From Liolophura sinensis (Eukaryota; Mollusca; Polyplacophora; Chitonida; Chitonidae), in the NCBI RefSeq assembly GCF_032854445.1, contig NC_088305.1, forward strand, positions 7,505,606-7,569,605: DNA of 64,000 nt, read 5' to 3'. Below are positions 17-63,262 of the stretch, in pieces. Each line of letters begins with the position of its first letter. The stretch's first letter is position 1. A model generated the notes under the pieces. The model ran no database searches and was not told where the DNA came from. It worked only from the letters and a program-made list of their open reading frames with translations. The position numbers and the translations under genes are program-made.

Positions 17-2869
17 GAAGGAAACTTTTGCTGACCCTGAACAGTTGTTTAATTCTCTTCGCACAGTTTTGCAGTCCGTCAAGGTAAGGTGGCCAAACCA
101 TCTTAACAGTTTAATTCACTCTGCACAGTTCTAGTTAGTTAAGGCACACTAGTTCTTAACAGTTTAATTCACTCTGCACAGTTCTAGTTAGTCATGGTCA
201 GGAGGTCAAAATTCTTAACAGTGTAATTCACTCTGCACAGTTCTAGTTAGTTAAGGCACACTAGTTAAAAACTCTTAACAGTTTAATTCACTCCACACAG
301 TTCTAGTTAGTCAAGGTCAGGAGGTCAAAATTCTTAACAGTTTAATTCACTCTGCACAGTTCTAGTTAGTCAAGGCATACTAGTTAAAAAATCTTAACAG
401 TTTAATTCACTCTGCACAGTTCTAGTTAGTCAAGGCATACTAGTTAAAAAATCTTAACAGTTTAATTCACTCTGCACAGTTCTAGTTAGTCAAGGCACAC
501 TAGTTCTTAACAGTTTAATTCACTCTGCACAGTTCTAGTTAGTCAAGGTCAGGAGGTCAAAATCCTTAACAGTTTAATTCACTCTGCACAGTTTTAGTTA
601 GTCAAGGCACACTAGTTCTTAACAGTTTAATTCACTCTGCACAGTTCTAGTTAGTCAAGGTCAGGAGGTCAAAATTCTTAACAGTTTAATTCACTCTGCA
701 CAGTTCTAGTTAGTCAAGGCACACTAGTTAAAAATTCTTAACAGTTTAATTCACTCTGCACAGTTCTAGTTAGTCAAGGTCAGGAGGTCAGAATTCTTAA
801 CAGTTTAATTCACTCTATATAGTTCTAGTCATTCAAGATCAGGAGGTCAACATTCTTTGCATGTTAAGAAACTGAAGTTAAAGCAATAAGACTAGTCACT
901 GTTTTTATGACTTGATAAGGGTTTTGAAGTAGTTTCCACAGGGGTGTTGTTTTAAGGGTGATTTTAGAACTTCTACTTCATAATAGAATTATAATAATTT
1001 TCATGCTCTAAAATTTATAGAAAGAAAGGAAATATTATTGTGATATGTTGAATATTCTAGCATAACTGATCAATGAGCCACACAGCCAAAGTGCTCTCTT
1101 AGAATCCAGAAGCCCTGATATACACATACATGTACACCTGTATTCTGTTGGGTCCTCTATGACTGAGTGGTTAGCGTGCTATTAACCCAGCACCCGGGCC
1201 CTGCCCGGTTTCCACCCACTATAATGCTGGCCGCCATCGCATAAGTGAAAGATTCTTGAGTACAACATAAAACACCAATCAAATAAATAAGTAAAATTAA
1301 CCCAGCACAATGACCCAGGAGCCCCCATTGAAGAGGCTGCTGTGAGTTCAAGTCAAGCTTATGCTGGTTTCCTCTCCGGACGTACGTGGGAAAGTCTTTG
1401 CTACATTTTCTCCTACCATTATGCTACCTGCCGTAGTGTACATGTAAGTAAATGATCTTCAGTGCGGCGTAATACACCTCTGTTCTTCTTCCACAGGGTC
1501 ATGGCAGTGCTTGGCCATTTCAAAAGCCAGTGGACAAATCTGAGGCTCCTGACTATTATGATCACATCAAATTTCCCATGGGTAGGTACATCCCACCCCT
1601 TACCCAGCAACCCACCCAGAAATACACAGTTGTCTGTAAATTTGAGCTACAAGCAGATGGCATAAAACGTATGATTATGGATGAATTGCATGGACTTAAG
1701 CGGATACAGAATTCTCACTGATTGGCTGATAGCAGAGAGATGATTTTCTGGGTTAAAACCTACAGCCATGGTCATGCTAGAATAAATGCACCATTAAAAA
1801 TCAGCTTAGCCTCCTGTATTTCACCTGAAGTTTGATATGTATATATGCACTTTCTAAATCACATGACCAATTCGGTGACCTGCTGGTTAGAGCGTCCATC
1901 TTGAACTCGAGAGACGCAAGATCAAACCTGGGTTGGGTCATACCAGACTTTAAAAATAATACTTGTTGCTGCTTCGCTTGGTGCTCAGCACTGAGAGGTT
2001 AGAGCAAGAAAAGAGGATTGGTTTCCCCGGTTCACACACCCAATGACTCTTCATTGTCATATGACTGAAAAATGGTTAATTACGACATTAAAGCCCAAGT
2101 ATTCATTCATATATTCTAAATCACATGAATGCCTTAAAATGATACTTTTGATGCCACTACGTAGGTTTTCCTGATAAAAAAAAATAAACCAGACTTCACA
2201 AAAAACTCTCTCTAACGTGGATGAATCAATCAGACTCAAGCGTAAGTGTGTCACCTGAAACATGCTTAACTTAGGTAAATACACTAGGTAATATCCGAAG
2301 TTGTATATCTCTCACACCAGCCAATCGTTGATAGAGGTGTATCCCTTTAAGTTGAAGGTATTCTGAGCTTTGTTTGGAAGACACATTTTGGATGGTACTC
2401 TATTAAGAAGTTTTCACCAATCATATGCATTTCTAGAGACGAATAAAGGTCGTAAAATGTTACTTTTAACCCTGAATTTTCAGCTTATTTTCACATATCT
2501 AAAGCAATCCGCAGAACACCTTGCTTGGAGATCAATAAAGTTCGCAAAATCGGGCAGAATGAATAACTTAGTCATAGATGATTTATTTATTTGATTGGTG
2601 TTTTACACCGTGCTCACGAATATTTAACTTATACGACTGCGGCCAGCATTATGATGGGAGGCAACCGGGCAAAGCCTGAGGAAACCCACGACCATCCACA
2701 GGTTGCTGCAAAACCTTGCCACCTACGGCCAGACAAGCGAGCATGTGCTGCACTTGAACTCACATTGACCCCATTGGTGAGAGGGTTTGGTTAGCGCGCT
2801 AACCAACTGGGCCACGGAGGCCCCTCATTCATTGGTGTATTTTACATATATATCATTCATTGGTCTATT

Positions 2870-2928
<59 letters not shown>

Positions 2929-3307
2929 GAATAATATATAAATATATATATATATATATATGCCATCAACAGTGAGACGTGCTAACCCCTCGGCCAGTCA
3001 TGGGTGATATTTGAAATTTAATACAGTAGGTTAATATATCCAACATTAAATAAATGCATACATGTAACTGTTGTTAATGAGTTCATCTGATCAACTGGTT
3101 TTCTTGACAGATCTGAAGACAATGTCCGAGAGACTACGGAATCGCTACTACTGTCACAAGCGTCTGTTTGTCGCCGACATGACGAGGATCTTCACAAACT
3201 GTCGCTCGTACAATGAGCCAGATACAGAGTATTACAAATGTGCCAATATCGTGGAGAAGTTCTTCCAGCAGAAGATGAAAGATCCGAGTCTTCAAGACAA
3301 GACGTAG
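17..3307 (+). CDS. KAT2: KAT2 (GCN5/PCAF) histone acetyltransferase, last three coding exons with C-terminal bromodomain
   Basis: Exons 17-83, 1497-1581 and 3111-3307 (stop TAG 3305-3307), each with GT/AG borders and matching phases. The 5' part of the gene lies before the window. The exons join to about 115 residues that match the C-terminus of GCN5/PCAF: a DPEQLF segment, the WPF shelf of the bromodomain (SAWPFQKPV), the ZA-loop region ending [16 protein letters not shown], and the BC loop [13 protein letters not shown], whose Asn is the residue that contacts acetyl-lysine in this family. The protein is the acetyltransferase of SAGA/ATAC-type complexes; this end reads acetylated histone tails. 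The family ends a few residues after EKFF, as here ([11 protein letters not shown] then stop), so the C-terminus looks complete. Whether it is KAT2A or KAT2B is moot, because most invertebrates have one KAT2 gene. The first intron begins with a minisatellite built from the exon end (see 84-858). Confidence 0.93.
84..858 (+). repeat. ~60-bp minisatellite starting at the KAT2 5' splice site
   Basis: About 13 units of 53-61 bp fill the first 775 bases of the intron, beginning at the GTAAGG donor. Each unit starts CTTAACAGTTTAATTCACTC, continues GCACAGTTCTAGTTAGTCAAG, and then has one of two tails that roughly alternate: GTCAGGAGGTCAAAATT or GCACACTAGTTAAAAA. The same order of words is present in the exon end and donor (AACAGTTGTTTAATTC, GCACAGTTTTGCAG, GTCAAG, then GTAAGGTGGCC), with two small indels. 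The exon is protein-coding and conserved in KAT2, so the exon is the likely source and the array the copy. Confidence 0.9.
1154..1480 (+). mobile_element. Two partial tRNA-derived SINEs (family A), abutting
   Basis: 1154-1292 has a tRNA-like box A remnant (GACTGAGTGGTTAGCG), then GCCCGGTTTCC and the family tail (GAGTACAACATAAAACACC, AATAAATAAG). 1297-1480 is a second piece with AATGACCCAGGAGCC, the box-B-like GAGTTCAAGTC, GCTGGTTTCCTCTCCGGACG and a decayed tail. The second piece ends about 17 bases before the next KAT2 exon (1497). Confidence 0.8.
1866..2110 (+). mobile_element. tRNA-derived SINE, family B/C relative
   Basis: Starts with a tRNA-like stretch (GGTGACCTGCTGGTTAGAGC, box-B-like GATCAAACCTG) and ends with the tail word CATATGACTGAAAAATGGTT followed by a decayed TTAAAGCCCAAG. 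This tail is shared by the other B and C family copies in the window. It lies in the KAT2 intron. Confidence 0.65.
2345..2540. repeat. Dispersed repeat, copy 1
   Basis: About 190 bp present again in inverted orientation at 16190-16385: shared words include ATTCTGAGCTTTGTTTGGAA, AAAACTTC-type spacers, CATATGCATTTCTAGAGACG and GTCGTAAAATGTTACTTTT. It has no coding potential; probably a non-autonomous transposon fragment. Confidence 0.7.
2580..2823 (-). mobile_element. tRNA-derived SINE (family A), near full length
   Basis: Minus strand, read 5' to 3': GGGCCTCCGTGGCCCAGTTG (tRNA-like start with box A), GTGAGTTCAAGTGCAG (box B), the body words GGATGGTCGTGGGTTTCC and TGCCCGGTTGCCTCCC, and the tail AAAACACCAATCAAATAAAT. 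This is the common SINE of the window. Confidence 0.85.
2868..2961. repeat. (TA)n microsatellite
   Basis: Runs of TA interrupted once near 2925-2945. It directly follows the SINE and a duplicated CATTCATTGGT word. Confidence 0.95.
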
Positions 3308-8310: not shown

Positions 8311-8329
8311 AAATTTGATCCAAATACTG

Positions 8330-17200: not shown

Positions 17201-20200
17201 GTTAGAACACCAGCGCGGCGCAATGATCCAGGAGCCTCCAACAATGTGGATGCTCTGAGTTCAAGTCCAGCTCGTTTATGGTCGTGGATTTCCCCTGTGC
17301 TGTGCCCGGTTTCCTCCCATAATAATGCTGGTCGCTGTCGTATAAGTGAAATATCCTTGAGTACGGCGTAAAACACCAATCAAGTAAATAAATAAATAAA
17401 TCTTTTAAGGTATATCAGAGACTTCTTTGTGACCAGTCTGCATACTGTCTTATGCTAATGCTAACTTATTTGTAGTTCTGTTATCAATTAATCAATGTTT
17501 TGTTTTTTTACTGCCAGATACATTTTGTCCATGTCAACACAAAGTATAGTTCTCTGGGCGAGGCGTTGACCCACCCCGATGGGCTGGCTGTAATTGGTGT
17601 CTTCCTTAGGGTAAGCTCTATCGGTTCAGAGTTCGATACCGAGTGTAGTCGTAAAATACTCCAAAGCTTGTAAAATGTTTGAAATTGCTTGAACTTGGGG
17701 AAAGTCCATGTAGCCTGAAAAAACAAAATTACAGGATTTGTAAGGTAGCCTTGTCATTTAGATATTCTCCGTAGTACCTGAGAGAGGCTTGGTGGTTGAG
17801 TGTTTTGTATTTGTTTTATATTTTAGTATAAATGTTATTATTATTAATAACAATTCAAATTAAATAAATAATTTTATTAGTGATTTCCTCGCTTAGCTCG
17901 GCCAACGAAGAAATAAGGAGTTGTCCAAAGTGATAAACAAGATGGAGAGTATCGAAACAAAAGGTGAGAATGGCTGTTTTCTGAGCATAGCTGTTTTCTG
18001 AGCATAGCTGTTTTCTGTGCATAGCTGTTTTTTTTTTTAGCATAGCTGTTTTCTGACCATAGCTGTACGTTAACTAAGTATACAGTTATTCAGCATATAT
18101 CAGCTGAAATGCTGTATATATTATATAGAGCGAATTTAGGCACAGGAGTGTGATCTTTCAAAGAGAAATTTTGCAGGACTGACCTTCCTAAATGAGAAAC
18201 CTTTCCCTGCAAAGTAATTCGGGTCCAAGCTGTGTAGCATATTGACCAGCCCTACCTTTGCGATGACGTTTTGTAGGCCAATTGGTGGCGTACATGTACA
18301 TATGAAATACTCATGCATTGCAAGAGAACAATGGTGACTCTATAGTCACCCCGAGTCTGTTGCGCGGGAAATGTTTGAATTCATAGTTTAAATGAATGGA
18401 TGAATAATTGGGGTTTGACGTGGTACCAGAAGTCCGTTACCTAGAAGTATGCAACTTCCCTATGGCTAGTCTCTACGGCATAGCGCACACGTTGCGTTAC
18501 CTGTAGAAGCTCATGCAACCTGGTGAAGAAATATGCCAACCTCATGGATTGAAATTGTGAACTAAATCACGAGAAATCTAATGTAAACGGTTCTTACAAA
18601 AACTGGCCACACCTTCAAATCGAAACTACGTAGCGGTATTTAAACACTACGATTTTTAAATTACTGTCACAGACATTGTTGTCATTTTACAAAACTCTCA
18701 GTGGTCGTAATTGTATAAGGTGTCCATTTCAATACAGTAGCGTTTGGGACATTTCTCCCACCATGCAACAGCCGTTTCTCAAACGTTTGGTGCGCAACAG
18801 AGAGAAAAAGATACATGTCTGCGCAGATACGTCACATAATGTGTTTGAGATCGAAGAAAAGCGTAAAATGACTTGCTATAGGGAAGTTGTATACTTCTAG
18901 GTAATGGACTTCTGGTCGTACTTGACAATTATTCATATGACGACAAGGGGTCAGGGGGTGTACACATATAATTTGTCTTCTTGTGACCGGGCGCGCCCAT
19001 GCCGCCAAAATGCTGCCGCCACTGAAGTATCATGCCAAAGACACCAGACATGACACCCTACCCAGTCACATTATACTAACATCGGGCCGACCAATCTCTA
19101 ACCTTTAGGCCACCGAAGCGGTCTATTCACAATTTGATATGAGTTTATGTGAATAGTTGTGCAAAGGGACATTAGCTGTACGGTTTGATAGCTTATTTAC
19201 GGTAAGGGAAACTTCGGCGTGAGAACATCCACCTTATTTGTACGACGATTTATAAAATTGAAGGTATAAGAATTCATGGTGGGAAAAAAGAAAACAAATT
19301 TGTTGCGTATAAGTTTTGCACAATGATAACCTTAAAAGCTACAATGTTGTCATGAAATTGTCTTTCCTTTGCAGAATCCAAAGTTCCGTTGAGTGTGGCA
19401 TTTGCCAAGTTGATGCCGCCCTTGACTAAGGTGTATTCCTACGCCGGCTCACTGACAACTCCTCCGTGCAGCGAAGTAGTGCAGTGGTTTATCTGCAAAC
19501 AGCGCATGGTCATCACGGAAAGTCAGGTACCGTACATTCTTTTCTTATTTGTATCACTGCTGGTGACGATAGCTGAAAGTCAAACATGTTTGATGGAGAA
19601 CGATAAGCCACTTATCACTTTATTGGCCATGGGCCGCCAGGTTTGCGCGGAAAAAGCGACAAAATGCAGCGATATATTGCTGTACGATTATGCACGCCCT
19701 GAACTGAAAGGAGAAGAACAATCATTCAGGTAACTAATCCACCTGCGGTGGGTATCAATCATTCAGGTAACTAATCCACCTGCGGTGGGTATCAATCATT
19801 CAGGTAACTAATCCACCTGCGGTGGGTATTAATCATTCAGGTAACTAATCCACCTGCGGTGGGTATCAATCATTCAGGTAACTAATCCACCTGCGGTGGG
19901 TATTATAGCTCATATGAATAATGTTAGGCACACTTACGTTGCATCCATTTTTTGTTCTTATTTATTCAAAGCAAAACATGTGTGTGAAGCTGAATTACGT
20001 ATATATTCAGGATTATAAAATACATTATTTACATACTCAGACATATAAAATACATTATCCATATACTCAGGCATATAAAATACATTATGCATATACTGAG
20101 GCATATAAAATAAGATATGTATATACTCAGTCATATAAAATGCATTATGTATATTCTCAGGCATATAAAATACATTATGTGTATACTCAGGCATATAAAA

Positions 20201-20629
20201 TACAATATGTATATACTCAGACATATAAAATACATCATTTACATACTCGGGCATATAAAACACGTTATGTATATATTCATTCATATAAACTACATTATGT
20301 ATATACGAAGGCACATAAAATACATTATGTATACACGCAGGCATTTAAAATACGTTATGTATATACTCAGGCATATAATATAAAATACATGGTATATATA
20401 CTCAGCCATGTAAAATGCGTTATGTATATACTCAGGCATTTAAAATACGTTATGTATATTCTCAGGCATGTAAAATACATTATTTACATACTCAGACAGG
20501 TAAAATACGTTATGTATATAGTCAGGCATGTAAACTATATTATGTATATACTCAGGCATATAAAATACATTATGTATATACTCAGGCATATAAACTACAA
20601 TATGTATATACTCAGGCATATAAAATACG

Positions 20630-20723
<94 letters not shown>

Positions 20724-49943: not shown

Positions 49944-50019
<76 letters not shown>

Positions 50020-53000
50020 TTCGGGTGTAACGTCGTACTTAACAATTTTTCAGTCTTGAGAGGACGAGGAGGCATTTGATGTGTTCTATGTATACTGTGT
50101 CATCTTGTGGCAAGGCGAATCCATGCCGCTCAAGTGCGGCCACCATCATGCCATAGACCAGACATGACATCCCACCCAGTTACATTGTGCTGACGCCGGG
50201 GTCAACCAGTCCTGTTTCCTCTCTCATTGCTGGGCGAGGACTCCCTAACCATTAGGCCATCCAAACAGTCCTGAAATAATAATTCATCTTGACATCCTTA
50301 TGACTTGTGATAAGAGCTATCAAGGAAACTGAAATTGCATTGTGTGGTGATCCACCCGAAAAAAAAAAACAATGTGAAAGTTTACAGAACTGTACAGAAT
50401 TAAAAAAATACTATTCATATACAATGTACATTGAGGAATATAAAGAACCTTCCTCCAGTATTAAATCTGGCTGTTAAGATTATCAAAATAGCTTAATACA
50501 CCTTATTATGACCCTCCGTATAATTCATTAGCTATACGGTATGTTAAATAACGGTCTCATGCTGAGTTTCCTGGATTTCATGTTAAGATGTTTCATCTAA
50601 ATACTATATGTTGTCTCGTGTGCCATCCATGCCATTCTTCAAAGACATACCGCTGAATATTATTTCAAAAACGCCGTTTTCAGCTGGAAAAAGCCCGGGC
50701 CCTGCTGACAGGTAGAGCTGGGTCTGAACCGTTTGGAAAAGTGGGGAACTTCCGCCCACCTCAGCCAATGAACGGCCGAAAAGTGGAATACGTCACAGTC
50801 AGACCAGACGCGCCAGCGGCTGAACATAAAGGACTTTCGCACACGTTTGATTATGATTTGAAGTCTCCTTCAGGTAAGCTCAACAAGTTATACAATTAGT
50901 TTCTTCGTAAATATAAACGTAATAGAATAAGATCACAAATTAACATTAAACCCTTCAGTTAACGAGATTCTGTTATAAAATTTATTAACATAATTTTTTT
51001 ATTCGGTTAAGTATACGATTGATGAAGTGTGTGGGAAAAGGGCAGAAACCGGTTTCCCCGGAAACAATCACCCATTGGAGGAGGGTGGGGGGGGTCCCTG
51101 TGGGCATACAGGTCGGGCCTGCATTAGCAAGATCTGGATTCAAACTGTGACCTCACTCATTTCCGTTGCTAAGAGTTTAAAACGTGACACGATACTCAGT
51201 CAATCGTTTTGTGTCTTCAGGACCTTTACATTGGGCGGAACTAGACCCTGGCTGGGAGGCATGCGATGCCAGTCGTAACGGAAAACGTCAGTCGCCTATA
51301 GACGTTCCTCTTCAGTCCTTGGTCCCGACTTCTGGAGGCGTGCTGACGTACAACACGCTGTCTGGGCGACTGAGCGGTAGTCTAAGGAATAATGGTATGT
51401 CCTAGTTGGGAGCTTCTATATAACTCATATAATAATGTGCGTGCGTGCGCGTGCGTGCGCGTGCGTGCGCGCGTGTGTGTGTGTGTGTGTGTGTGCGGGC
51501 GTTCGTGCACACCCCACTGAGGATCGATGTAGAGATACAACTCTAATACTTCACTCGCTTAGGATCGCTGTAGAGATACAAGTCTGAGACTTCATTCACT
51601 GAGGATCCCTGTAGAGATACAGGTCTAAGACTTCACTCACTTAGGTTTGCTTAGAGATACAAGTTTGAGACTTCACAGGCTTAGGATGGCTGTAGAGATA
51701 CAAGTCTAAGACTTAACTCACTCAGGATTCAGTTCGGTAAAAGTTGAAACAACTGACAGTTAACAAGAACCGCTGAAAGAATCATGGCCCACGGACAAAA
51801 TTTTACAACCGTATTATCCTATTTTAGGGGGAGGAACGAGAGAAAAAGGAGGGAGGGGGGAGTGGTTCGGTGCATTGCGTTGGATAATGATTGTTTTCCA
51901 TTCCCGGACATTGCAGGTCATTGGCCGGTGTTTGAGTTTGACCTTCCGGAGAGAGTGTTAACAGGAGTTCCGTACAGTTCCGATGAGTATGAACTGCTCC
52001 AGTTCCACATCCACTTCGGTCCAGATGACACCAGCGGATCTGAACATCTAATGGGAGGAAAGGCTTTCCCAGCAGAGGTAATTGTACAGGGCGTCTGACA
52101 GACGGTACACATACAGGGCATCTGGTAGAAGGGAAGGCGTTGTCAGCTGTTGTACATGTATAGGGCATCTGATAGAGGGGAAGCCTTTGTCAGCAGAGGT
52201 ACATGTATAGGGCATCTGATAGAGGGGAAGCCTTTGTCAGCAGAGGTACATGTATAGGGCATCTGATAGAGGGGAAGCTTTTGTCAGCAGAGGTACATGT
52301 ATAGGGCATCTGATAGAAGGGAAGGCGTTGTCAGCAGAGGTACATGTATAGGGCATCTGATAAAGGAGAAGGCGTTGTCAGCAGAGGGACATGTATAGCA
52401 CATCTGATAGAAAGGAAGGCGTTGTCAGCAGAGGTACTTGTATAGGATATCTGGTAGAAAGGGAAGCGTTGTCAGCAAAGGGACATGCATAGGGCATCTG
52501 ATAGAAGAGAAGGCGTTGTCAGCAGAGGCATATGTATAGGGCATCTGATAAAGGAGAAGGCGTTGTCAGCAGAGGTACTTGTATAGGGTATCTGATAGAG
52601 GGGAAGCCTTTGTCAGCAGAGGTACATGTATAGGGCATCTGATAAAAGAGAAGGCTTTACCAACACAGGGTACGTGTATAAGCATCTGGTGTGGTAATTG
52701 TTCTAGCACAAGGAGTACGTGTTTTTTCAAGTAAACTAGAAGTCTGTTTTATCAAATAGCTCACTTTGGAAGATCAGGTCTGTCCATGAACGCAGAGATA
52801 GACATATCCGGACAACGATGCAACAAAGTCTTATAAAAACGTGTATCCCTTGAGAATAACTGGTGACTGTTGCACATTTCCTGGGATACAATTGCTTGTT
52901 GACGAATGTTATAAGTATTTGAAATATATTTAAAAAGTGAGGTATTAGTGATATGACATTATTTTAGTTTTACCAAATCATTTTAAATTTGGCTTTATTG

Positions 53001-55774
53001 AAGCGTATATTGTTTACATCGATATTAATTGAATTTTTATACCTATTTCCGGTCACAGATACATTTTTTACATAAAAACCGGAAGTATCCCTCAGTGAAA
53101 GAAGCTCTGCAGCACGAAGATGGCTTGGCTGTGATTGGCGTTTTTGTACAAGTAAGACTAATGACTTTTGTAATACATGGAGAAGTTTTGATATCATTTG
53201 TATAAAGGTTTATGTCATGTCATTTCATGACGCCAATGTTCTACCAAACCAAACACTCCGGGACACACCTCGCTTAAAACTGTAATACGTAATGGTGCTT
53301 AATGGAGGATTTCTTTTTAAACTGAACGGAGACTGAAGTTTGATTTCCTTGAACACCTATACGGACTGTATTAAAAGAGGGCACACATTGTACAGAGATA
53401 AACTTTCAAGTCATCAACACGATGTCATTATCTAATGGCTAACAAAAAAAATGAGCCAGTACCGCTATCTTAACACATCAATGTTTTTATGACCGTGTAC
53501 ATCACCTTGGGGCAATATGACGGTGTCACTAACGTCACACGATCTGGCGTCAGATCACGATCCGACGTCATGCTATGCAACACCAGCTCAGCGATTTGAG
53601 ATTTTGGAAACGTAACGCATACATTTACCTTTGCTACATCATGTTACCAGGTAGGTCCCACGGGAACCAGTGAGACTTTACAAGAAATTGTATCTAACCT
53701 AGATGCCATAAAGGCTGTGGGTAAGTTCATCCTTTAGCTTGGAATCATGTTATAGTTACAAATTTATACTTGCTGTAAAAATAAATGACACAGAATTTCA
53801 AGGTTTTCTGATTCGTTTAACAGTTCAGACAAATTCACCTTCATATATGTACCTTGTAGTAGAGTTGCTTATGGTAAAATCCCATTCTCCTTCTACATGT
53901 AACACATGTGGCGTTCTGTACGCTCGCTTTACATCACTGCCAACACTGGACAAGTGTGACCTGTCGAACCTGTGATACGCGCATAGATATGCCCAGGCTC
54001 AGCCTCAACACTGGTGTCCTCTCGCGGAACTATTTAATCAACATTTTAATCAACACTATACTGTGCACATTGTAGATGAATAGAATGCATGTGCATAAAG
54101 TATTTTTAGAAATTAGGGTTGAGACAGAGTTTTTGTGTTTTCTGACATCATTTCCCGCCGCATCACCGTGACCTGAGTGACGGTTAAGATTTCTGTACAA
54201 AATTTGCTAGTCGGGGACATTGTTGTAAAACGAACTCCGAGAACAGCACATGCGCTGTATGTAGTATGATAAAACTCGTGTAAACAGTGAATTCTTCAAT
54301 CAACAAGTGGGTCAATTCTTTTCTTTCAGGTCCAGGACTTCCTTTATTGCTTGACCCTAATGACCTTATGCCGTCGCCTGGCAACTGGTCCGAATACATA
54401 ACTTACCCAGGCTCCCTGACAACGCCCGGATGTTTTGAGGTAGTTCGCTGGCTTCTCCTTCAGGACCCCGTCACCATCACCGCAGACGAGGTAAAGATCA
54501 TTGCTCTCCGAGCCTCTTATATGTAATTATTTATTTATTCGATTGAAGACTATTTCACTTATTCAACGGGAGTCAGCATCATAGTTGGCGGAAACCGAGT
54601 ACAGCGCAGGGAAAATGCACTACAATACGCAGGCTGCTGGCGGACCTTCCCACGTACGACCTGAGAGGAAGCAATCATGAGCTAGACCTGAACTCACAAC
54701 GACTGCATTGGTGAGAGGCTCCTGCGTCATTGTTCTACGGTAGCATGCCAACCACTAAGTATCGAAGGCCCCAGTCTGTCATATACCATACACATTACAA
54801 TATCAAGCATATCCGCGTTGGCTGTGTAGGAGTTTCTCATATTTAGCGGAGGCTCTACACATTTATATTTGACAATGTTGCTGACTAGATTGATCCAAAA
54901 CATGAAACTTCGCTTTTATAATCTCTGCATGCATTTAAAAAAATTATATATATTTAAAAATAATAACGCTTCGAAGTTCTGCCATCTGAATCGTGTCATT
55001 TTGTTTTATGGCGGCAATACTACTGAAGTTCAAGAGTAATGATTCATTTATTCGTTCATTGTTCAGGGAAGCTAGGCCTCAGCAGATTGAATAATTATGG
55101 CCACAGAGTTAACATGCCGGTTTAAACAAAGGAGATAGGTGAAGAAGTGGTCAGCATTATAGCAGGTGTACTTACCACCATGATACTTTGCCATGATGAA
55201 AACTAAAATGCGAAATTCGATTGAGTTTATACAAGTTTACCCTTCGTCCGTTCCTCACTCCGTCTGTCCGTCAGTCCATCAGTGCGTCAGTCAGTCAGTC
55301 CGTCACTCAGTCAGTCAGTCCGGCTGTCGGTCCGTCACTCCGTCAGTCAACTGTAACTGTTCATCTTTTTTCTTTATTTATTTATTTGATTGGTGTTTTA
55401 CGCCGTACTCAGTAATATTTCACTCATGCGACAGCGGTCAGCATTGTAGTGCGTGGAAACATTCAATATTACACACGAAATATTAGTTGTCTGTTTTCAA
55501 CAAAATTATGCCCGTTTTGGCTCTCCTATGGACTTTAATGTACCGGTAGTCAAGTCAAGAATGCTTGTTTTTGCTCTTTCACTTTTGGAATATGTAATAT
55601 GTGTAATATGTCAGACCATCAGTAGGTAAAATATTTCATTTTCGTTTTCAGCTTCAGAAATTCCGCACGTTACTAACAGGTGATGCTGACTCCGAGCCCA
55701 TGGGGACAATGGGGAACTTCCGGCCCCCTCAACCTTTGAACAGTCGGCAGGTAGAACTGGTTCAAACAGCCTAA
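27896..55774 (+). CDS. Secreted VWD-like / triple alpha-carbonic anhydrase protein, 26 exons, about 1108 residues
   Basis: Exons: 27896-28016, 32169-32410, 34141-34237, 35435-35560, 35849-35974, 36487-36663, 37328-37488, 38315-38407, 38974-39055, 39520-39680, 41126-41234, 42205-42240, 42803-42838, 44164-44283, 44723-44899, 45692-45852, 47285-47377, 49270-49339, 49603-49769, 50684-50873, 51221-51394, 51917-52077, 53059-53151, 53651-53720, 54330-54490, 55652-55774. They sum to 3327 nt with every phase matching, ending in TAA (55772-55774). Order of parts: signal peptide (1-22, MRLLRVVKWCLLLGLLDNCS), VWD-like region (about 41-195), acidic linker (196-237), CA domain 1 (238-498, one zinc ligand lost), Pro-rich linker with duplicated micro-exon (499-562), CA domain 2 (563 to about 825), short linker, CA domain 3 (849-1108). 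The start has A at -3. The product should be a large extracellular protein with two working CA units. Two-domain CAs are known from giant clams; I know of no VWD-CA-CA-CA protein. The model assumes one transcript; two genes cannot be wholly excluded, but no new signal peptide or stop occurs between domains. Confidence 0.88.
28360..28465 (+). mobile_element. SINE (family A), 5' truncated
   Basis: GGTCGTGGGTTTCACCCGGG, GTCCGGTTTCCTCCCGCCAT, AATGCTGGCCGCTGTC and the tail ACACCAATCAAATAAATAAA. Confidence 0.85.
28466..28985 (+). other. Intron 1 of the triple-CA gene, no features seen
   Basis: No exon or repeat recognised. Confidence 0.5.
28990..29140. repeat. Dispersed repeat shared with 21770-21930
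   Basis: TAGAATAAAAC, GGTAAATTGACAAGAGGCC and CAGCTATCACACTGTCGTCG match the earlier copy. Confidence 0.6.
29590..29940. repeat. 40-bp minisatellite
   Basis: About eight units of TAGGCTTATATCAATTGTTT, ACGGCTTGCAACACAGGTTG. Confidence 0.92.
29941..31089 (+). other. Intron 1 of the triple-CA gene, no exon seen
   Basis: A decayed SINE-like tail lies at about 30340-30430 (GCATTCCGGTTTCATCCACC, ATTGTATAAGTAAAAA). Otherwise featureless. Confidence 0.5.
31090..31925. repeat. 54-bp minisatellite with a 162-bp higher-order period
   Basis: About 15 units of ACAGTACCCTTCGTTACCAG, GAATGAAAATGTACCGTAC, TTGTTCATTACTAAA. In the first part three units form a 162-bp block that is repeated almost exactly (compare 31155 onward with 31317 onward). 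The length is 18 codons, so frames on both strands stay open without being genes. Confidence 0.92.
32169..35560 (+). CDS. Exons 2-4 of the triple-CA gene: divergent von Willebrand type D-like region
   Basis: Exons 32169-32410, 34141-34237 and 35435-35560 encode residues 41-195. The order of landmarks fits a VWD domain: a first Cys (46) followed by RFDGATRTL (FDG at 57-59), a second Cys (76) before QFHVTVTITG, repeated beta strands (AHLFLTVKDGTRVV), a Cys in GGYDCLSMAG, GFASIIVNRDLKLETY, and near the end LCGTCGYVPD (179-187), which resembles the CGLCGN..D signature of VWD. Six Cys in all. In other proteins VWD domains assemble or bind matrix. The match is by eye and the domain is short (about 155 residues), so it is a degenerate member at best. 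Exon 5 (35849-35974) follows with an acidic linker rich in D, E and N and ends in an unusual GTTTGT donor. Confidence 0.6.
32740..34120. repeat. 75-bp satellite made of three 25-bp monomers
   Basis: About 17 units fill intron 2. Each 75-bp unit consists of three related 25-mers starting AAGATCTTCACTAAGTCAAG, GCGATCTTTACTAACCGGTG and GAGATCTTCACCAAGTTGTG. All share GATCTT near the start. Some units lack one or two monomers. The array ends only about 40 bases before exon 3. Confidence 0.92.
34488..34730 (+). mobile_element. SINE (family A), near full length
   Basis: GCTTCCGTGGTTCAGTTGGT, AATGACCCAGGAGCCTCTCA, GAGTTCAAGTCCGAGC, GTCCGGTTTCGTCCCACCAT, tail AAAACACCAATCAAATAAAG. Confidence 0.9.
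34731..35071 (+). other. Triple-CA gene intron 3, no features seen
   Basis: No exon or repeat recognised between two SINEs. Confidence 0.5.
35072..35338 (+). mobile_element. SINE (family A), diverged full length
   Basis: GGTTAGTGTGCTAGAGCAGC, AATAACCCAGGAATCTTGCA, GTAAGTTCAAGTCCAAATCA, GTGTCCGGTTTCCTCCCATG, tail GCGTAAAACACCAGTTAAAT. Same orientation as its neighbour at 34488. Confidence 0.85.
35975..36486 (+). other. Intron 5 of the triple-CA gene
   Basis: Contains three TTAGGG units at 36418-36435, otherwise no features. Confidence 0.6.
36418..36435 (+). repeat. Interstitial telomere-type repeat, (TTAGGG)3
   Basis: Three perfect TTAGGG units, 50 bases before the first exon of CA domain 1. 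Confidence 0.85.
36487..41234 (+). CDS. Exons 6-11 of the triple-CA gene: carbonic anhydrase domain 1 with one zinc ligand lost
   Basis: Six exons (177, 161, 93, 82, 161, 109 nt) encode residues 238-498. The fold is intact: GPDHW, RQSPINIE, GHAPSL (proton-shuttle His298), GSEH, IHFVNYNTRY (third zinc His352), [21 protein letters not shown] and GNYRPVAPLNRR. The strand that normally carries the first two zinc ligands reads LLGLRIHFG, so the first His is Arg327 and only His329 remains. The same His94-to-Arg change defines the catalytically dead CA-related protein VIII of vertebrates, so this domain probably does not hold zinc normally and is probably inactive. It is the most diverged of the three domains. 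It may serve in binding or folding. Confidence 0.9.
36895..37066 (+). mobile_element. SINE (family A), head truncated
   Basis: GTACGTGTGGAGGTCTGACA, GCAACCTGCGGATGGACGTG, then the tail GAGTATGGTGTAAAACACCA, within intron 6. A similar minor SINE tail lies at about 36790-36865. Confidence 0.8.
37489..37904 (+). other. Triple-CA gene intron 7, first part
   Basis: No exon or recognised repeat before the SINE at 37905. Confidence 0.5.
37905..38180 (+). mobile_element. SINE (family B), head truncated
   Basis: TAAAGGAGGAAGTTGTAGC, CCCGTATCAGTATAATGGCT (its start duplicated locally), GCGATGGAAATCCGGTCTG and the tail TTCGACGTTAAACCCCAAGC. Confidence 0.8.
38408..38973 (+). other. Triple-CA gene intron 8, no features seen
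   Basis: Starts with the weak donor GTGTGT. No repeat recognised. Confidence 0.5.
39224..39302. repeat. Four ~19-bp tandem units
   Basis: GAAACTTTATTTTACAGAG and variants, in intron 9. Confidence 0.75.
39845..40600. repeat. Degenerate CCCTAA/CCTAACC repeat field
   Basis: About 750 bases of C-rich, telomere-like words (CACCCTAACCCTAACCTAGC, ACTAACACCCTAACC) with no fixed period, in intron 10. The C-rich strand is the plus strand, opposite to the TTAGGG units at 36418. Confidence 0.85.
40601..41125 (+). other. Triple-CA gene intron 10, last part, no features seen
   Basis: Ends GCGTTTCAG before exon 11. Confidence 0.5.
41385..41640 (+). mobile_element. SINE (family A), near full length
   Basis: GGGCTCCGTGGCAGAGGTGG, AATGCGGTCGCTGCGAG, GGAAGGTCTGACCGCAACCT, and the tail GAGTACGGCGTAAAACACCA, AATAAATAAAC. 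Confidence 0.9.
41641..42147 (+). other. Intron 11 of the triple-CA gene, no exon seen
   Basis: AT-rich. A weak family-A tail remnant may lie near 41845-41890 (CATATTCAAGAATTTTTCAC). Confidence 0.45.
42148..43620 (+). repeat. Segmental duplication: micro-exon plus 31-bp array, twice
   Basis: Unit 1 is about 42148-42735 and unit 2 about 42736-43620. Each has GATAAGC(A/G)(A/G)ACTTTGATATTG, a 3' splice site CTTTCTTGTTTTCAG, a 36-nt exon, the donor GTAGGA(G/A)(A/G)ATG, a GTGGTTCA word, GGATAACTTATG, then a 31-bp array (GTAGGCATCGCCTGAGGCAA, CTTGTGATACA). The arrays hold about 14 and 21 units; the end of array 2 shows a 91-bp three-unit period (43327, 43418, 43509). Confidence 0.9.
42205..44283 (+). 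CDS. Exons 12-14 of the triple-CA gene: linker with duplicated 36-nt micro-exon
   Basis: Exons 42205-42240 and 42803-42838 are 36 nt each, phase 1 on both sides, and encode EPGLHTEPLVP and EPGLYMEPLVP. Skipping either keeps the frame. Exon 44164-44283 (120 nt) encodes DLPSLEQRASDIEGPTRPG and on to TFNYDVNSPS, which leads into CA domain 2 just as FNYDPN leads into the single-domain enzyme. The linker between domains 1 and 2 is thus about 64 residues, Pro-rich and basic. The strand of 33 identical or near-identical bases between the micro-exons shows the duplication is young. Confidence 0.85.
43840..44015 (-). mobile_element. SINE family C
   Basis: TTTTTCAGTCATATGACCTC, GAAGCATCATGCCGAAAGCA, CCAGACATGACACCCCACCC, GACACTAGGTCGACCAGTC. 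Confidence 0.75.
44365..44530 (-). mobile_element. SINE family C, truncated
   Basis: GCTTGGGGTTTAACGCCGTA, TTAGTCATATGACCATGGCG, CATGCCGCCTAAGTGCTGCC, AAGTATCATGCAGAAGATA. Confidence 0.75.
44537..44665 (-). mobile_element. SINE (family A), internally deleted
   Basis: TATTTCACTGGTGTTTACCG (tail) joined to a box-B complement GATTCGAACTCACAGC and a decayed tRNA-like head. Confidence 0.5.
44723..50873 (+). CDS. Exons 15-20 of the triple-CA gene: carbonic anhydrase domain 2, active site intact
   Basis: Six exons (177, 161, 93, 70, 167, 190 nt). Motifs in order: GHAHWKDQ, ACDASRAASRQSPVDI, RNNGHSP (proton-shuttle His623), LLQFHMHFGP (zinc His652 and His654), GSEHLLDG, ELHFVHKNRKY (zinc His677), [25 protein letters not shown] (substrate Thr), GNFRPPQPMNGR. 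All residues needed for zinc and catalysis are present; the Pro that usually follows the two Thr is Gln. Cys in ACDAS and TTQGC can form the disulfide of secreted CAs. Exon 20 also encodes the linker to domain 3 (RPDAPAAEHKGLSHTFDYD). It closely resembles domain 3, so the two arose by a later duplication than domain 1. Confidence 0.93.
44900..45691 (+). other. Triple-CA gene intron 15
   Basis: Holds a short (GT)n run at 45167-45182, nothing else recognised. Confidence 0.5.
45853..46332 (+). other. Triple-CA gene intron 16, first part, no features seen
   Basis: A word (GATATCTGGATA) recurs near 45970 and 46032. No exon seen. Confidence 0.45.
46335..46562 (-). mobile_element. SINE (family A), internally deleted
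   Basis: GATTGGTGTTTTACTCCGTA, ACGGCCGGAGAGGAAGCCAG, and the head ACCAACTGAGCCACGGAGGC at the right end. Confidence 0.88.
46563..47284 (+). other. Triple-CA gene intron 16, last part, no features seen
   Basis: Ends GTGTTTTGCAG. No exon or repeat recognised. Confidence 0.5.
47680..48300 (+). mobile_element. Tc1/mariner-like transposon relic with long inverted repeats
   Basis: Inverted arms of about 118 bp: 47696-47815 (AATCAAGTCAACACACTG, GATGTGCTCCAATGAGCATG, GATCGGATTTTGA) and 48174-48291 (TCAAAATCCGAACGATAATG, CTCATTGGAGCACATCCGC, TGTGTTGACTTGATTACAG). Between them, 47869-48135 is the 3' end of a transposase: PTEHLWDQLKPAVYRH (the Glu is the third catalytic residue of the DDE family), RHLLQEEWLVIPQNRI, then KHGGYTRF and stop. 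The first two catalytic Asp and the DNA-binding part are missing, so it cannot move by itself. It sits in intron 17. Confidence 0.88.
48301..48624 (+). other. Triple-CA gene intron 17, no features seen
   Basis: No repeat or exon recognised. Confidence 0.5.
48625..48960 (-). mobile_element. SINE (family A), followed by a second SINE-like tail
   Basis: 48625-48835: GATTGGCGTTGTACGCCCTA, CCGGGCAGAGCCCGGGCGG, CACGTACGGCCAAAGAGGAA, box-B complement TTTGAACTCACAG. 48860-48960 is another diverged tail in plus orientation (TCTGGTTTCCTGTAACCATA, GCGTTTAACACCAATAAATC). Confidence 0.75.
49945..50018. repeat. (TA)n microsatellite
   Basis: Pure TA tract in intron 19, directly before a SINE tail. Confidence 0.95.
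50019..50275 (-). mobile_element. SINE family C, near full length
   Basis: CTTCGGGTGTAACGTCGTAC, CAATTTTTCAGTCTTGAG, GGCAAGGCGAATCCATGCCG, CAGACATGACATCCCACCCA, and a tRNA-like head complement near 50245-50270 (CCTAACCATTAGGCCATCC). Confidence 0.8.
50276..50683 (+). other. Triple-CA gene intron 19, last part, no features seen
   Basis: Ends CGCCGTTTTCAG. Confidence 0.5.
51221..55774 (+). CDS. Exons 21-26 of the triple-CA gene: carbonic anhydrase domain 3, active site intact
   Basis: Six exons (174, 161, 93, 70, 161, 123 nt), residues 849-1108. Motifs: GPLHWAELD, ACDASRNGKRQSPIDV, RNNGHWPVF (proton-shuttle His908), LLQFHIHFGP (zinc His937 and His939), GSEHLMGG, EIHFLHKNRKY (zinc His962), YPGSLTTPGCFE (substrate Thr), GNFRPPQPLNSRQ. 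The protein ends seven residues after the family's usual last strand (VELVQTA), with no GPI signal or membrane segment, so it should be soluble and secreted. Exon lengths equal those of domain 2 except the first, fifth and last. Confidence 0.94.
51435..51730. repeat. (GTGC/GT)n microsatellite and 45-bp minisatellite
   Basis: 51435-51495 is GTGCGTGCGCGTG-type sequence turning to pure GT. 51525-51730 holds about five 45-bp units (TGTAGAGATACAAGTCTGAG, ACTTCACTCACTTAGGATC) in intron 21. Confidence 0.9.
52078..52690 (+). repeat. 47-bp minisatellite starting at the donor of CA exon 22
   Basis: About 13 units of 47 bp: GGGCATCTGATAGAGGGGAA, GCCTTTGTCAGCAGAG, GTACATGTATA. The last 36 bases of exon 22 plus the first 11 of the intron (GAACATCTAATGGGAGGAAA, GGCTTTCCCAGCAGAG, GTAATTGTACA) align to the unit without gaps, 34 of 47 identical. 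Nearly every unit keeps CAGAG/GTAC, a usable-looking donor. 47 is not a multiple of three. Confidence 0.92.
52691..53058 (+). other. Triple-CA gene intron 22, last part, no features seen
   Basis: AT-rich. Ends TTTCCGGTCACAG. Confidence 0.5.
53152..53650 (+). other. Triple-CA gene intron 23, no features seen
   Basis: A short stretch near 53530-53570 has several ACGTCA words (TAACGTCACAC, CGACGTCATG), reminiscent of the CRE cluster but without a perfect site. Confidence 0.45.
53721..54329 (+). other. Triple-CA gene intron 24, no features seen
   Basis: Ends TTTTCTTTCAG. Confidence 0.5.
54527..54770 (-). mobile_element. SINE (family A), diverged
   Basis: TTATTTATTCGATTGAAGAC, TTCCCACGTACGACCTGAGA, GACCTGAACTCACAACGACT and a decayed head. 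Confidence 0.8.
54771..55244 (+). other. Triple-CA gene intron 25, no features seen
   Basis: AT-rich, no exon or repeat recognised. Confidence 0.5.
55245..55350. repeat. (CAGT/CCGT)n simple repeat
   Basis: GTCAGTCAGTCAGTCCGTCA type units. Confidence 0.85.
55372..55475 (-). mobile_element. SINE (family A), tail half
   Basis: TTTGATTGGTGTTTTACGCC, GTACTCAGTAATATTTCACT. Confidence 0.85.
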
Positions 55775-58379: not shown

Positions 58380-61300
58380 CTAAACTATCGCACCTGTCTC
58401 CTCGCGAGGGACGCTGGGAGCGGAAGTCACGATTGCTTTGGCCATGTCTTCGACGTCATGGTGTCTCACGCAAATTTGTATGGCCGCGTCCCAACTGTAG
58501 CCATACAAACACTGACACTTGTAACTACCCACCGTGTTCTGACAGTACTCGTGACTATGACAGTCGTAGGTACCGTCATAACACTCGTCTATGTCTGCAA
58601 AAATGATGACAAAAATACTATAGATCTTCTCTGCAACTTTGTAACTTCCTGCAGTGTTCTGGCAGTACTTGTAGTCAGTAATACAGATACTTACTGGACA
58701 CCGTCGTCGTTCTGATGAAATTATGATCGTATGTATATCGTTTTGTTAACAACAATCTAACACACTTCCTACTGCCGGCGCGTTCAAAGGATGTGTCAAT
58801 CACAGACGCGCTGCTTGAAACAAGGCAGCAGTCAATGAGCCAAAGCTGGGGGTAACTTATGGAAAATCACGAGTCGTGACTCAACAGCCAAGCAAGAACA
58901 TGGCGATATCTGGCCGTAAAACAGATAGTACCGTTTTACTGATGTTATACTCCTATCGGTCAGTTGCTTCAGTATGACGAACTTAAATCCTCAGAACAAA
59001 CAATCGTTTGAACCAATTGATAATAGGCTTTCTTTGGCATGTCCACCATATTGCTCGTCTAAGCTACTTCGGCTGCAGAAATGGCACTTCCCCTTTTATC
59101 CGACAGACATCGACTGTTCCTGGCGAAAACGTCCTCTTTAGAAAGCCTCATACTGATTGGTTGCTAATGACATCAATGACCTCTGGTTGTTCACCAGAGG
59201 TCAACGAACTCGCTGATGATGGGAAGTGTGCCAGATCGTTGTTAGTTATATACGTACGAGCTGATTTTAACTTGCACCGTCGTATAAGTGAAATATAATT
59301 GAGTAAGATGTAAAACACTACTCAAAAATAAAAAGACACTTGCTGTAATAAAACTTGGGCCACTTTAACAACATAAGTCACAAGTCCTTTTTCCCGTAAA
59401 TGACGTTGCCTGTGTGTTACAGTGCCATATGGTGACGTTATTTACTTTCATATGTACTTTTCCCAAATTTTCATATGTGAAAACTGATCACTGTACATAA
59501 AACCAGATAAAATCACCGTACTTCTACCAACTGTATTACATTTCTGACACATAGTCCAAGCTGGCCATAATACGGTGAGAAGAACGGACAACCTTACCAA
59601 CGAATTGGTCCAAACTCGCTGTAATACAGAGAGAACAGACAACGTAACAAACAAATGGTCCAAGCTGGTCATAATGCAGAGAAAGGAACGGACAACCTTA
59701 CCAACATATGGTCCAAACTGGCCATAATACAGTGAGAAGAACGGACAACCTTAACAACATATGGTCTAAACTGGCCATAATAAAGTGAGAAGAACGGACA
59801 ACCTTACCAACGCATAGTCCAAACTGGCCATAATACAGTGAGAAGAACGGACAACCTTACCAACACATGGTCCAAACTGGCCTTAATGCAGTTAGAAGAA
59901 CAGACAACCTTACTAACACATGGTCCAAACTTGCCATAATACAGCGAGAAGAACGGACAACCTTACGCACACATGGTCCGAACTGGCCATAATACGGCAA
60001 AAAAATAAACGGACAACCTTACAAAGGCATGGTTCAAACTTGCCATAATGCAGCGAGAATAACGGGCAACCTTACCAACATATGGTCCAAACTGGCCATA
60101 ATACAGTGAGAAGAACGGACAACCTTAACAACACATGGTCTAAACTGGCCATAATAAAGTGAGAAGAACGGACAACCTTACCAACGCATAGTCCAAACTG
60201 GCCATAATACAGTGAGAAGAACGGACAACCTTACCAACACATGGTCCAAACTGGCCTTAATGCAGTAAGAAGAACAGACAACCTTACTAACACATGGTCC
60301 AAACTGGCCTGAATACAGTGAGAAGAACGAACAACCTTACCAACACATGGTCTAAACTGGCCATAATACACGGAGAAGAGCGGACAACCTTACCAACACA
60401 TGGTCCAAACTGACCATAATACAGAAAGAACAACCCACAACCTTACCAACACATGGTCCAAACTGGCCATAATACAGCGAGAAGACCGGACAACCTTAAC
60501 AACACATGGTCCAAACTGACCATAATATAGTGAGAAAAACGGACAGCCTTACTAACACATGGTCCAAACAGGTCATAATACAGCAAAGAGAACGGACAAC
60601 CTTACCAACGCATGGTCCAAACTGGCCATAATACAGCAAGAAGAACGGACAATCTTACCCACACGTGGTCTAAACTGGCCATAATACAGCAAGAAAAACG
60701 GACAATTTTACCAACGCATGGTCCAAACAGGCCATAATACACGGAGAAGAACGGACAACCTTACCAACACATGGTCTAAACTGGCCATAATGCAGGGAAA
60801 AAACGGACAACCTTACCAACACATGGTTCAAACTGGCCATAATACAGCAAGAAAAACGGACAACCTTACCAATACATGGTCCAAACTGGCCATAATACAG
60901 CAAAAAGAACGAAGAACCTTACCAACGCATGGTCCAAACTGGTCATAATACAGCAAGAAAAATGGACAACCTTACCAACACATGGTCCAAACTGATCATA
61001 ATACAGCAAGAAAAACGGACAACCTTACCAACGCATGGTCTAAACTGGCCATAACACAGCAAGAAAAACGGACAACCTTATCAACGCATGGTCCAAGCAG
61101 GCCATAATACAGCAAGAAGAACGGACAACCTTACCAACACATGGTCCAAACTGGTCATAATACACCAAAGAGAACAGACAACCTTACCCACACATGATCC
61201 CAACTTGCCATAATACAGCGAGAAGAACGGACAACCTTACGCACACATGGTCCGAACTGGCCATAATACGGCAAAAAAATAAACGGACAACCTTACAAAG

Positions 61301-63262
61301 GCATGGTTCAAACTTGCCATAATGCAGCGAGAATAACGGGCAACCCTACCAACATATGGTCCAAACTGGCCATAATACAGCGAGAAGAACGGACAACCTT
61401 AACAACATATGGTCTAAACTGGCCATAATAAAGTGAGAAGAACGGACAACCTTACCAACGCATAGTCCAAACTGGCCATAATACAGTGAGAAGAACGGAC
61501 AACCTTACCAACACATGGTCCAAACTGGCCTTAATGCAGTAAGAAGAACAGACAACCTTACTAACTCATGGTCCAAACTGGCCTGAATACAGTGAGAAGA
61601 ACGAACAACCTTACCCACACATGATCCCAACTTGCCATAATACAGCGAGAAGAACGGACAACCTTACGCACACATGGTCCGAACTGGCCATAAAACGGCA
61701 AACAAATAAACGGACAACCTTACAAAGGCATGGTTCAAACTTGCCATAATGCAGCGAGAATAACGGACAACCTTACCAGCACATGGTCCAAACTGGTCAT
61801 AATACAGTGAGAAGAACGGACAACCTTACCCACACATGGTCCAAAGTGGCTGTAATACAAGGAGAACGGACAACGTAACCAACAAATGGTCCAAGCTGGC
61901 CATAATACAGTGAGAAGAACGAACAACCTTACCAACACATGGTCCAAACTGGTCATAATACAGCAAGAAGGACAGACAACCTTACCAACACATGGCCCAA
62001 ACTGGCTGTGATACAGGGAGAACGGACAACGTAACAACCAAATGGTCCAAGCTGGCCATAATACAGTGAGAAGAACGGACAACCTTACCAACACATGGTC
62101 CAAACTGGTCATAATACAGTGAGAAGAACGGACAACCTTACCAACACATGGTCCAAACTGGTTATAATACAGCAAAAAGAACGGACAACCTTACCAACGC
62201 ATGGTCCAAACTTGCCATAATGCAGCGAGAAGAACGGACAACCTTAACAACACATGGGCCTAACTGGCCGTGATGCAGCGAGAAGAACGAATAACCTTAC
62301 CAACGCATGGACCAAACTTGCCATAATGCAGGGAGAAGAACGGACAACCTTACCAACACATGGTCCAAACTGGTTATAACACAGCAAGAAGAACGGACAA
62401 CCTTACCAACATATTGTCGAAACTGGCCAGTATGCAGCGAGAAGAACAAACAAACTTACGAATGCATGGTCCAAACTGCCCATAATACAGCGAGAAGAAC
62501 GGACAACCTTACCCACACATGGTCCAAACAGACCATAATACAGTAAGAAGAACGGCCAACCTTACCAACACATGGTCCAAATTGGCCATAATACAGCGAG
62601 AAGAACGGACAACCTTACCAACACATGGTCCAAACTGGTCATAATACAGCAAGAAGAACGGACAACCTTACCAACACCTGGTCCAAACTGGTCATAATAC
62701 AGCAAGAAGAACGGATAGCCTTACCAACACATGGTCCAAACTGGCCTTAATACAGTGAGAAGAACGGACAACCTTACCAACTCATGGTCTAAACAGGCAT
62801 AATACAGCGAGAAGAACGGACAACGTTACCAACGCATAGTCCAAACTGGCCATAATACAGAGAGAAGAACGCAAAACCTTAACAACGCATAGTTCAAACT
62901 GGCCATAATACAGAGAGAAGAACGGAAAACCTTAACAACGCATGGTCGAAACTGGTCATAATATAGCGAGAAGAACGAGCAACTTTACCAACACATAGTT
63001 CAAACTGGCTATGATGCAGCGAGAAGAACCTTACCAACGCATAGTCCAAACCGCGAACTCCATTCGAATCCTTTGGTGACCTGCGCACAATTGCAAGTGT
63101 AATTCAGCCGGTTTCTAATCAAATCTTCGAAGTTAATATTCCTGAGTCTCGGGAAATCGCACTTTCCATCTGCAATCTCCCTACAGGGATTACTACTGGC
63201 TTTCCAACAGTCTTGGGGTTTGGAGATCCCGGATTCGCTGATGCGTCGACCACAACATATAT
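58380..63262 (-). CDS. EGF-domain protein, last two coding exons (3' end)
   Basis: Exon 63035-63262 (228 nt) and exon 58380-58594 (215 nt with stop TAG at 58380-58382), both entered in phase 1 as is usual for EGF exons. The last exon is a textbook calcium-binding EGF module: DIDECYDGTYDCHSHEYCQN, then TVGSYKCQCLYGYSWD and a final Cys in QICV, six Cys in the right order with the Asp/Asn/aromatic residues that bind calcium. A 27-residue tail (RHHDVEDMAKAIVTSAPS and on) ends the protein. The previous exon is a longer, diverged EGF-like unit with eight Cys (ICCGRRISES, QDCWKASSNPC, GKCDFPRL, NYTCNCAQV, FGLCV). Upstream exons are beyond the window. Probably extracellular; the parent family cannot be named from two domains. 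Confidence 0.85.
58595..59279 (-). other. EGF gene intron, 3' part
   Basis: Apart from the decayed EGF exon at 58615-58700 nothing is recognised. Confidence 0.5.
58615..58700 (-). pseudogene. Decayed partial copy of the calcium-binding EGF exon
   Basis: Minus-strand reading gives SICITDYKYCQNTAGSYKVA, which parallels TYDCHSHEYCQNTVGSYKCQ of the real exon 30 bases further on; the DNA word AGTACTGCCAGAACACTGCA matches AGTACTGTCAGAACACGGTG. The Cys pair C-x-C after GSYK is lost and the ends do not have matching splice sites. It is a failed tandem exon duplication. Confidence 0.6.
59280..59335 (+). mobile_element. SINE (family A) tail fragment
   Basis: GTCGTATAAGTGAAATATAA, GATGTAAAACACTACTCAAA. 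Confidence 0.65.
59570..63034 (-). repeat. 53-bp satellite (about 65 units) starting at the EGF exon's 5' splice site
   Basis: On the gene strand the unit is GTTTGGACCATGTGTTG, GTAAGGTTGTCCG, TTCTTCTCGCTGTATTATGG, CCA. The real exon end and donor at 63030-63051 read GTTTGGACTATGCGTTG / GTAAGG, and the intron goes on TTCTTCTCGCTGCATCATAG, CCA, so the first unit is the exon-intron junction itself: 17 exon bases plus 36 intron bases. Most units keep TTG/GTAAGG unchanged, so dozens of donors identical to the real one lie downstream of it. Larger blocks recur (59960-60070, 61230-61340 and 61650-61760 share a unit with AATACGGCAAAAAAATAAAC). Confidence 0.95.

Follow-up and report, generated by a model that had tools for sequence, protein, structure and literature searches.

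In a 64,000-nucleotide stretch of the genome of the chiton Liolophura sinensis (contig NC_088305.1, positions 7,505,606 to 7,569,605 of the forward strand; hereafter the window, numbered from its first letter) four introns carry a minisatellite array at their 5' splice site (donors 84, 17964, 52078 and 63034). In three of the arrays the repeat unit consists of exon end, donor and early intron and crosses the exon-intron junction. In the fourth array the unit consists of the intron start. A sample of genes from outside the window supports the conclusion that tandem duplications without any sequence relationship recur independently at 5' splice sites in this genome. The arrays probably represent minisatellites of the type known from amphioxus as mirages. 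They would result from a general growth of intronic minisatellites which is tolerated across donors since the first, authentic donor would still be used.

The four arrays were pointed out by a first-pass annotation made from the letters alone. Tandem Repeats Finder (TRF), direct reading of the sequence and self-alignment agreed that they are real and that their units are composed as described above. The splice sites of the window were taken from gene models based on translated exons, which comprise 25 donors and 28 acceptors and leave out at least one small exon of the triple carbonic anhydrase gene. These models describe four genes, namely the 3' end of KAT2, a single-domain carbonic anhydrase (CA), a three-domain carbonic anhydrase (triple-CA) and, on the minus strand, a gene with EGF domains. 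For the self-alignment, 40 exon and 20 intron bases of each donor were compared with the following intron. The four array-bearing donors gave the highest scores of all 25 (51 for 52078, 45 for 63034, 43 for 84 and 28 for 17964), followed by a score of 22 for the fifth-best donor. The best score among the 28 acceptors was 19. Thus, the similarity to the junction persisted on alignment. For the triple-CA array TRF reported a span of 52099-52688, and the alignment placed the start of the similarity at about 52056, inside the exon. The EGF array was detected by TRF at 59547-63029 with 65.7 copies of 53 bp, and its first copy starts at 63050 in the exon. This array occupies about 3.5 kb of a 4.4-kb intron. 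Each unit of the three crossing arrays contains 16-37 nt of coding sequence; the fourth array begins within the intron. The reading frames are intact across the array-bearing junctions. The TRF units of the four arrays are unrelated in sequence and length, and a single mobile repeat behind all arrays, already rejected by the annotation, is therefore ruled out.

In order to place these arrays in a wider context, the assembly (609,464,459 bases in 632 contigs) was sampled outside the window. This assembly was published as Liolophura japonica (PMC11068029), a name later corrected to Liolophura sinensis (PMC12441733). Conserved exons were selected by Pfam family. The first sample consisted of 60 loci with 1.5 kb on either side (30 myosin and 30 kinesin, taken as given) and 80 stretches with 400 bases on either side (20 myosin, 40 kinesin and 20 CA, chosen from rows without stop codons). 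Splice sites were predicted in the oriented sequences by weight matrices derived from the window, and an array was counted as crossing when it extended 8 nt or more beyond the junction in both directions. Three sites were corrected by eye: the donor of L106, crossed by 10 nt, and two sites not counted as crossed, the donor of L068 and the acceptor of L040_4562919.

In the first sample 9 of 140 donors were crossed (L026, L039, L057, L106, L107, L130, L136, L139 and L141), compared with 2 of 140 acceptors (L044 by 23 nt and L071 by 9 nt). L136, L139 and L141 count as one event because they are tandem gene copies. Twenty-eight extra flank exons of the same genes added two crossing donors (L019 and L022); none of their acceptors was crossed by the required 8 nt, that of L042 being crossed by 7 nt only. 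None of six SNF2 donors, the only ones of the 34 added donors from a fresh family, was crossed, and one of them (L153) has no clear donor in its 351 bases. The sample total amounts to 11 of 174 donors (9 of 172 when counted as independent events) and 2 of 168 acceptors (3 if L042 is included); two or three of these 168 acceptors lie too near the locus end for an array to be visible. The sampled arrays have TRF periods of 30-180 bp, and the exon part of the donor arrays is 10-113 nt long. They were found in myosin, kinesin and CA genes and have unrelated units. Window and sample together contain 16 junction-crossing arrays, 14 at donors and 2 at acceptors.

The first-pass annotation had tied the process to 5' splice sites. 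An exclusive link to these sites did not hold, as both intron boundaries are affected. The acceptor-crossing arrays are located at 773-1529 of L044, at 1-405 of L071 and at 20-1201 of L042 (sense orientation). One of them consists of a polypyrimidine tract followed by AG/GTATTTTC in about 44 repeats.

Minisatellites are abundant in the sampled genes. The 60 large loci contain 60 distinct arrays, which make up 14.6% of 178,411 distinct bases. Consequently, the duplication process is general in this genome. Array coverage is 0.074 in the first 50 nt past the donors and reaches 0.12-0.16 deeper in the intron. Because it is no higher at donors than elsewhere, only array edges and junction crossings were used for testing. 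Under a uniform model, duplications may land at any place in an intron, and a unit of length p has p-16 placements in which it reaches 8 nt past a given junction in both directions. Summed up, such placements amount to a rate of 1.6% for each junction if the exon content is 15%, which leads to 2.8 expected donors and 2.7 expected acceptors. The 11 observed donors (P 1.5e-4), like the 9 independent ones (P 0.002), lie three- to fourfold above this expectation, and in this respect the recurring process at 5' splice sites claimed by the annotation was upheld. The acceptors, three with the 7-nt case, are near expectation (P 0.5). When donors were compared with acceptors (11 versus 2 or 3), P was 0.020 or 0.053, and 0.061 or 0.139 for independent events. 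Addition of the window, which had been chosen because of the pattern, lowered these values to 0.0035 or 0.011. The 34 added donors alone gave 2 crossings versus 0.54 expected (P 0.10). Thus, the donor excess is likely but not proven, acceptors show no excess, and the difference between donors and acceptors is borderline. The annotation had stressed the accumulation in one 64-kb window. However, 3 crossing donors of 25 fit the rate of the sample (P = 0.21), so that the window is typical of the genome and not a hot spot.

These data are probably best read as general minisatellite growth of the mirage type. The founding event would be a tandem duplication caused by replication slippage or end joining, with a unit of 30-180 bp (judged by the TRF period) that happens to include exon end, 5' splice site and intron start. 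Unequal exchange or slippage may then have enlarged the array, as suggested by the blocks that recur in the EGF array and by similar repeat patterns. Arrays across a donor would be tolerated since their first, exon-bound donor stays in place, precedes the others in transcription and adjoins the intact exon; the later copies would then become intron. The position of the intact frame points to the use of this first donor. Copies across an acceptor would place surplus acceptors in front of the correct one; as the counts suggest, such copies may be purged more often. This purging is our proposed reason for the donor bias.

Several findings weigh against this explanation. The donor excess over the intron interior (11, or 9 independent, versus 2.8) is not explained by tolerance alone. 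A second test, which used the first 140 exons and took its rate from the local frequency of array starts between 60 and 250 nt inside the intron, was weaker, with 9 crossings versus 3.6 (P 0.011) and 7 independent ones versus 3.5 (P 0.066). Furthermore, 38 of the 66 units of the EGF array score as high as the real donor; strong decoys have thus been kept and may be in use. As for the observation of the arrays itself, 18.5% of 200 random positions in the minisatellite-rich window also score at least 40 in the self-alignment. A repeat that is merely near a donor therefore means little, and junction crossing is what counts. An argument from coverage was dropped on the same figures, since repeats take up a similar share of random positions and of donors (18.5% of 200 versus 3 of 25).

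The donor excess would also be expected if duplication were directed to 5' splice sites by U1-bound nascent RNA, R-loops, transcription-replication conflict or features of the donor sequence such as repeated AGGTAAG microhomology. Such seeding is possible, though unlikely. Besides the 9 independent donors against 2.8, with acceptors at expectation, it is favored by a cluster of array starts at +25 to +60 past the donors, where 35 nt hold 6 starts and the rate of 15 in 290 nt would predict about 1.8. However, just one array start lies between -8 and +25 around the donor. Array starts are thus scarce in the 25 nt next to the donor itself, and a precise origin at that site is not apparent. The numbers are small, the independent events are borderline in the second test, and the comparison with acceptors varies between P 0.02 and 0.14 depending on the counting of one 7-nt overlap and three paralogues; the added donors do not change this picture (P 0.10). 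The specific trigger proposed by the annotation (U1, R-loops or template switching) is conjectural.

The fate of the copied donors was followed in 13 donor arrays with 161 intronic units. GT is kept in 133 units, 96 units score at least 6 with the window matrix, and 54 reach the score of the authentic donor. Seven of the 13 arrays (KAT2, triple-CA, L039, L107, L139, L019 and L022) contain no inner donor at the authentic score. The drift of decoy donors is thus directly visible in many arrays. Because the inner donors drift, the authentic donor appears to be under selection and the copies not. The annotation had expected introns flooded with decoy donors. This applies to the EGF array, in which 56 of 66 units have GT and 47 have GTAAGG. 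It does not apply to KAT2, where 5 of 13 inner units have GT and none scores 6 or more. Strong decoy donors can be carried in large numbers, as in the EGF array.

The retention of GTAAG in most EGF units (50 of 68 parsed rows) is what would be expected if the arrays were functional, that is, if extra U1 sites were selected, for instance for splicing regulation or for protection of a long intron from premature polyadenylation, or if inner donors were used as in human IFI6. We consider this highly improbable. GT is kept in a proportion of 0.85 of the EGF units, which is no better than other positions (about 0.91 identical), and the donor is lost or weakened in the units of KAT2, L039, L019 and L022.

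Conservation within the units bears on yet another explanation. Duplications might arise evenly and those containing exon sequence might last, because the exon copy fixed by selection re-seeds or homogenises the array. The exon parts of several arrays are conserved at least as well as the intron parts (0.97 versus 0.84 in KAT2, 0.99 versus 0.87 in L019); of the per-position analysis only this broad contrast is usable, as the junction column was misplaced for KAT2, CA3, EGF and L022, and L057 yielded no result. However, several arrays show no difference between exon and intron (0.92 versus 0.91 for EGF). Moreover, such anchoring should act at acceptors too, yet acceptors show no excess. Overall, this explanation is quite improbable.

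Tandem arrays are a known cause of assembly error. Nevertheless, an artefact or chance is barely conceivable here. The HiFi reads have a mean length of 8,347 bp at 14X (PMC11068029) and are longer than these arrays. In addition, point changes distinguish the units of an array, and the 16 junction-crossing arrays have unrelated units.

The annotation was aware of no earlier account of such arrays, but amphioxus mirages and human IFI6 precede them. According to PMC3087553 and PMC3902484, the mirages of amphioxus are minisatellite-like tandem duplications over exon-intron boundaries in Adh3, the globins BflGb6 and BflGb9, and PGBD5, with troponin C also named. Their units measure 10-72 bp (Adh3) or 150-160 bp (globins), many but not all units keep AG/GT, and both intron ends are affected. 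Splicing was normal by reverse transcription PCR (RT-PCR), and copy number or array length was unstable. The chiton arrays resemble these mirages as described there. They vary in unit length and affect both intron ends, and many but not all of their units keep the splice signal (133 of 161 with GT). Three window arrays also cross the boundary, whereas the array at 17964, which contains no exon sequence, does not. They differ in that their host is a mollusc and that several gene families of no common origin carry them, at about 6% of the donors sampled and at far fewer acceptors. The amphioxus data include RT-PCR and polymorphism, while the chiton arrays are known from the genome sequence of one haplotype.

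Human IFI6 (6-16), in which a minisatellite supplies multiple splice donors (Turri 1995, as cited in PMC4526556), likewise has tandem repeats with donor signals at an exon-intron boundary. In IFI6, by that account, inner donors are used and give several mRNAs. The chiton inner donors are read from DNA, and those of KAT2 include none that is usable. Intron gain by tandem genomic duplication (the Rogers model; potato RdRp, as outlined in PMC4974935) also involves duplication of a segment with splice signals. In contrast, judging by the CA paralogues, the chiton introns predate their arrays and no new intron was made. No mollusc report of boundary-crossing arrays was found in the open-licence PMC literature, which is weak evidence of absence, and the main text of the chiton genome papers searched for these terms does not mention minisatellites. 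What is new is therefore the phylum, the frequency (the first one based on a sample, within the open-licence literature searched) and the comparison of donors with acceptors; the mirage class itself is known.

The relative age of introns and arrays can be deduced from paralogous CA domains. The same intron position is found without an array in three of them (14744, 37489 and 45853), with self-alignment scores of 16, 12 and 17 versus 51. As only one of four paralogous CA introns has an array, the introns are older than the arrays. Creation of the triple-CA intron by tandem duplication is thereby ruled out. In the CA cluster on C1, L139 and L141 have about 2-3 copies and L136 about 6, and L135 and L137 have an apparent decayed second copy that lost its donor (seen by eye, not detected by TRF). 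We read this as one founding duplication that may have expanded in one member of the cluster and degenerated elsewhere in it. CA genes form clusters at 90.98-91.22 Mb of C1, 70.72-70.74 Mb of C6 and 12.75-12.89 Mb of C10, with 108 exon matches, which is fitting for the biomineral life of a chiton. Exons of receptor-type tyrosine phosphatases also occur in very many tandem copies, with at least 151 matches on C7 (5.8-30.1 Mb), C15 and C3.

Table 1. Arrays at 5' splice sites of the window and the introns that contain them
Feature	Position	Strand	Details
KAT2 (GCN5/PCAF-type) junction-crossing minisatellite	47..857	+	TRF 59 bp x 13.9; unit of 37 nt exon end and 22 nt intron; donor 84
Array-bearing KAT2 intron	84..1496	+	Downstream exon codes for start of bromodomain
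Single-domain CA array	17965..18066	+	TRF 17 bp x 5.8; unit is first intron bases past donor 17964, no exon sequence
Triple-CA junction-crossing minisatellite, third CA domain	52056..52690	+	TRF 47 bp x 12.5; unit of about 22 nt exon and 25 nt intron; donor 52078
Array-bearing triple-CA intron	52078..53058	+	Gene model, self-alignment
EGF-gene junction-crossing minisatellite	59547..63050	-	About 66 copies of 53 bp, each of 16 nt exon and 37 nt intron; donor 63034
Array-bearing EGF-gene intron	58595..63034	-	Phase 1; next exon starts DIDEC

The features of the window are listed in Table 1. The window is rich in minisatellites (109 TRF rows), and its genes are supported by Pfam matches to the bromodomain (2e-24), carbonic anhydrase (5.9e-54) and EGF_CA (2.4e-11). 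The donor-carrying exon of the EGF gene has no Pfam match of its own and is assigned to the gene through the frame GTTG/../ACATAGACGAGTG. An exon-like fragment, ACTACAAGTACTGCCAGAACACTGCAGGAAGTTACAAAG, is located at 58615-58675 on the minus strand, some 100 nt upstream of the EGF exon. It resembles that exon and may represent either an alternative exon or one incomplete duplicate at the acceptor side.

A further array of 37-bp units (five copies, 98% match by TRF) is found at 19719-19903 on the plus strand, 192 nt into the CA intron 19527-22215. Each unit carries a donor-like CAG/GTAACT (donor score 7.4), and past 19526, where the preceding exon ends, the frame runs on without a stop for another 68 codons up to the CAG/GTAACT at 19730. 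Possibly, 19730 is an alternative donor and 19719-19903 a fifth boundary array, which we left out of the counts. One intron of the triple-CA gene contains telomere-like degenerate CCCTAA/CTAACCTAGCA repeats at 39982-40544, and GTTAGG repeats also occur at 36417-36437. The first CA domain of this gene (37328-37488) has LGLRIHFG where other domains have FHxHFG. Presumably it lacks one zinc-binding histidine, a residue that domains two and three keep.

A wider reading would be that tandem duplication favors 5' splice sites in chitons, perhaps in all animals rich in intronic minisatellite growth, that transcription or splicing steers the birth of minisatellites, and that some multi-donor introns, such as that of the EGF gene and its roughly 66 donor copies, have come to help retain U1. 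We regard this as speculative and distinctly unlikely. For gene predictors and assemblers the arrays are a warning, since they offer false exon ends. Mirages, so far treated as a lancelet oddity of a few genes, recur in a mollusc genome at roughly one donor in 16, and in the chiton exon-intron units were copied head-to-tail up to about 66 times. Consequently, the start points of minisatellites and the spliceosome's disregard of dozens of nearby good donors become countable in public genomes and RNA data.

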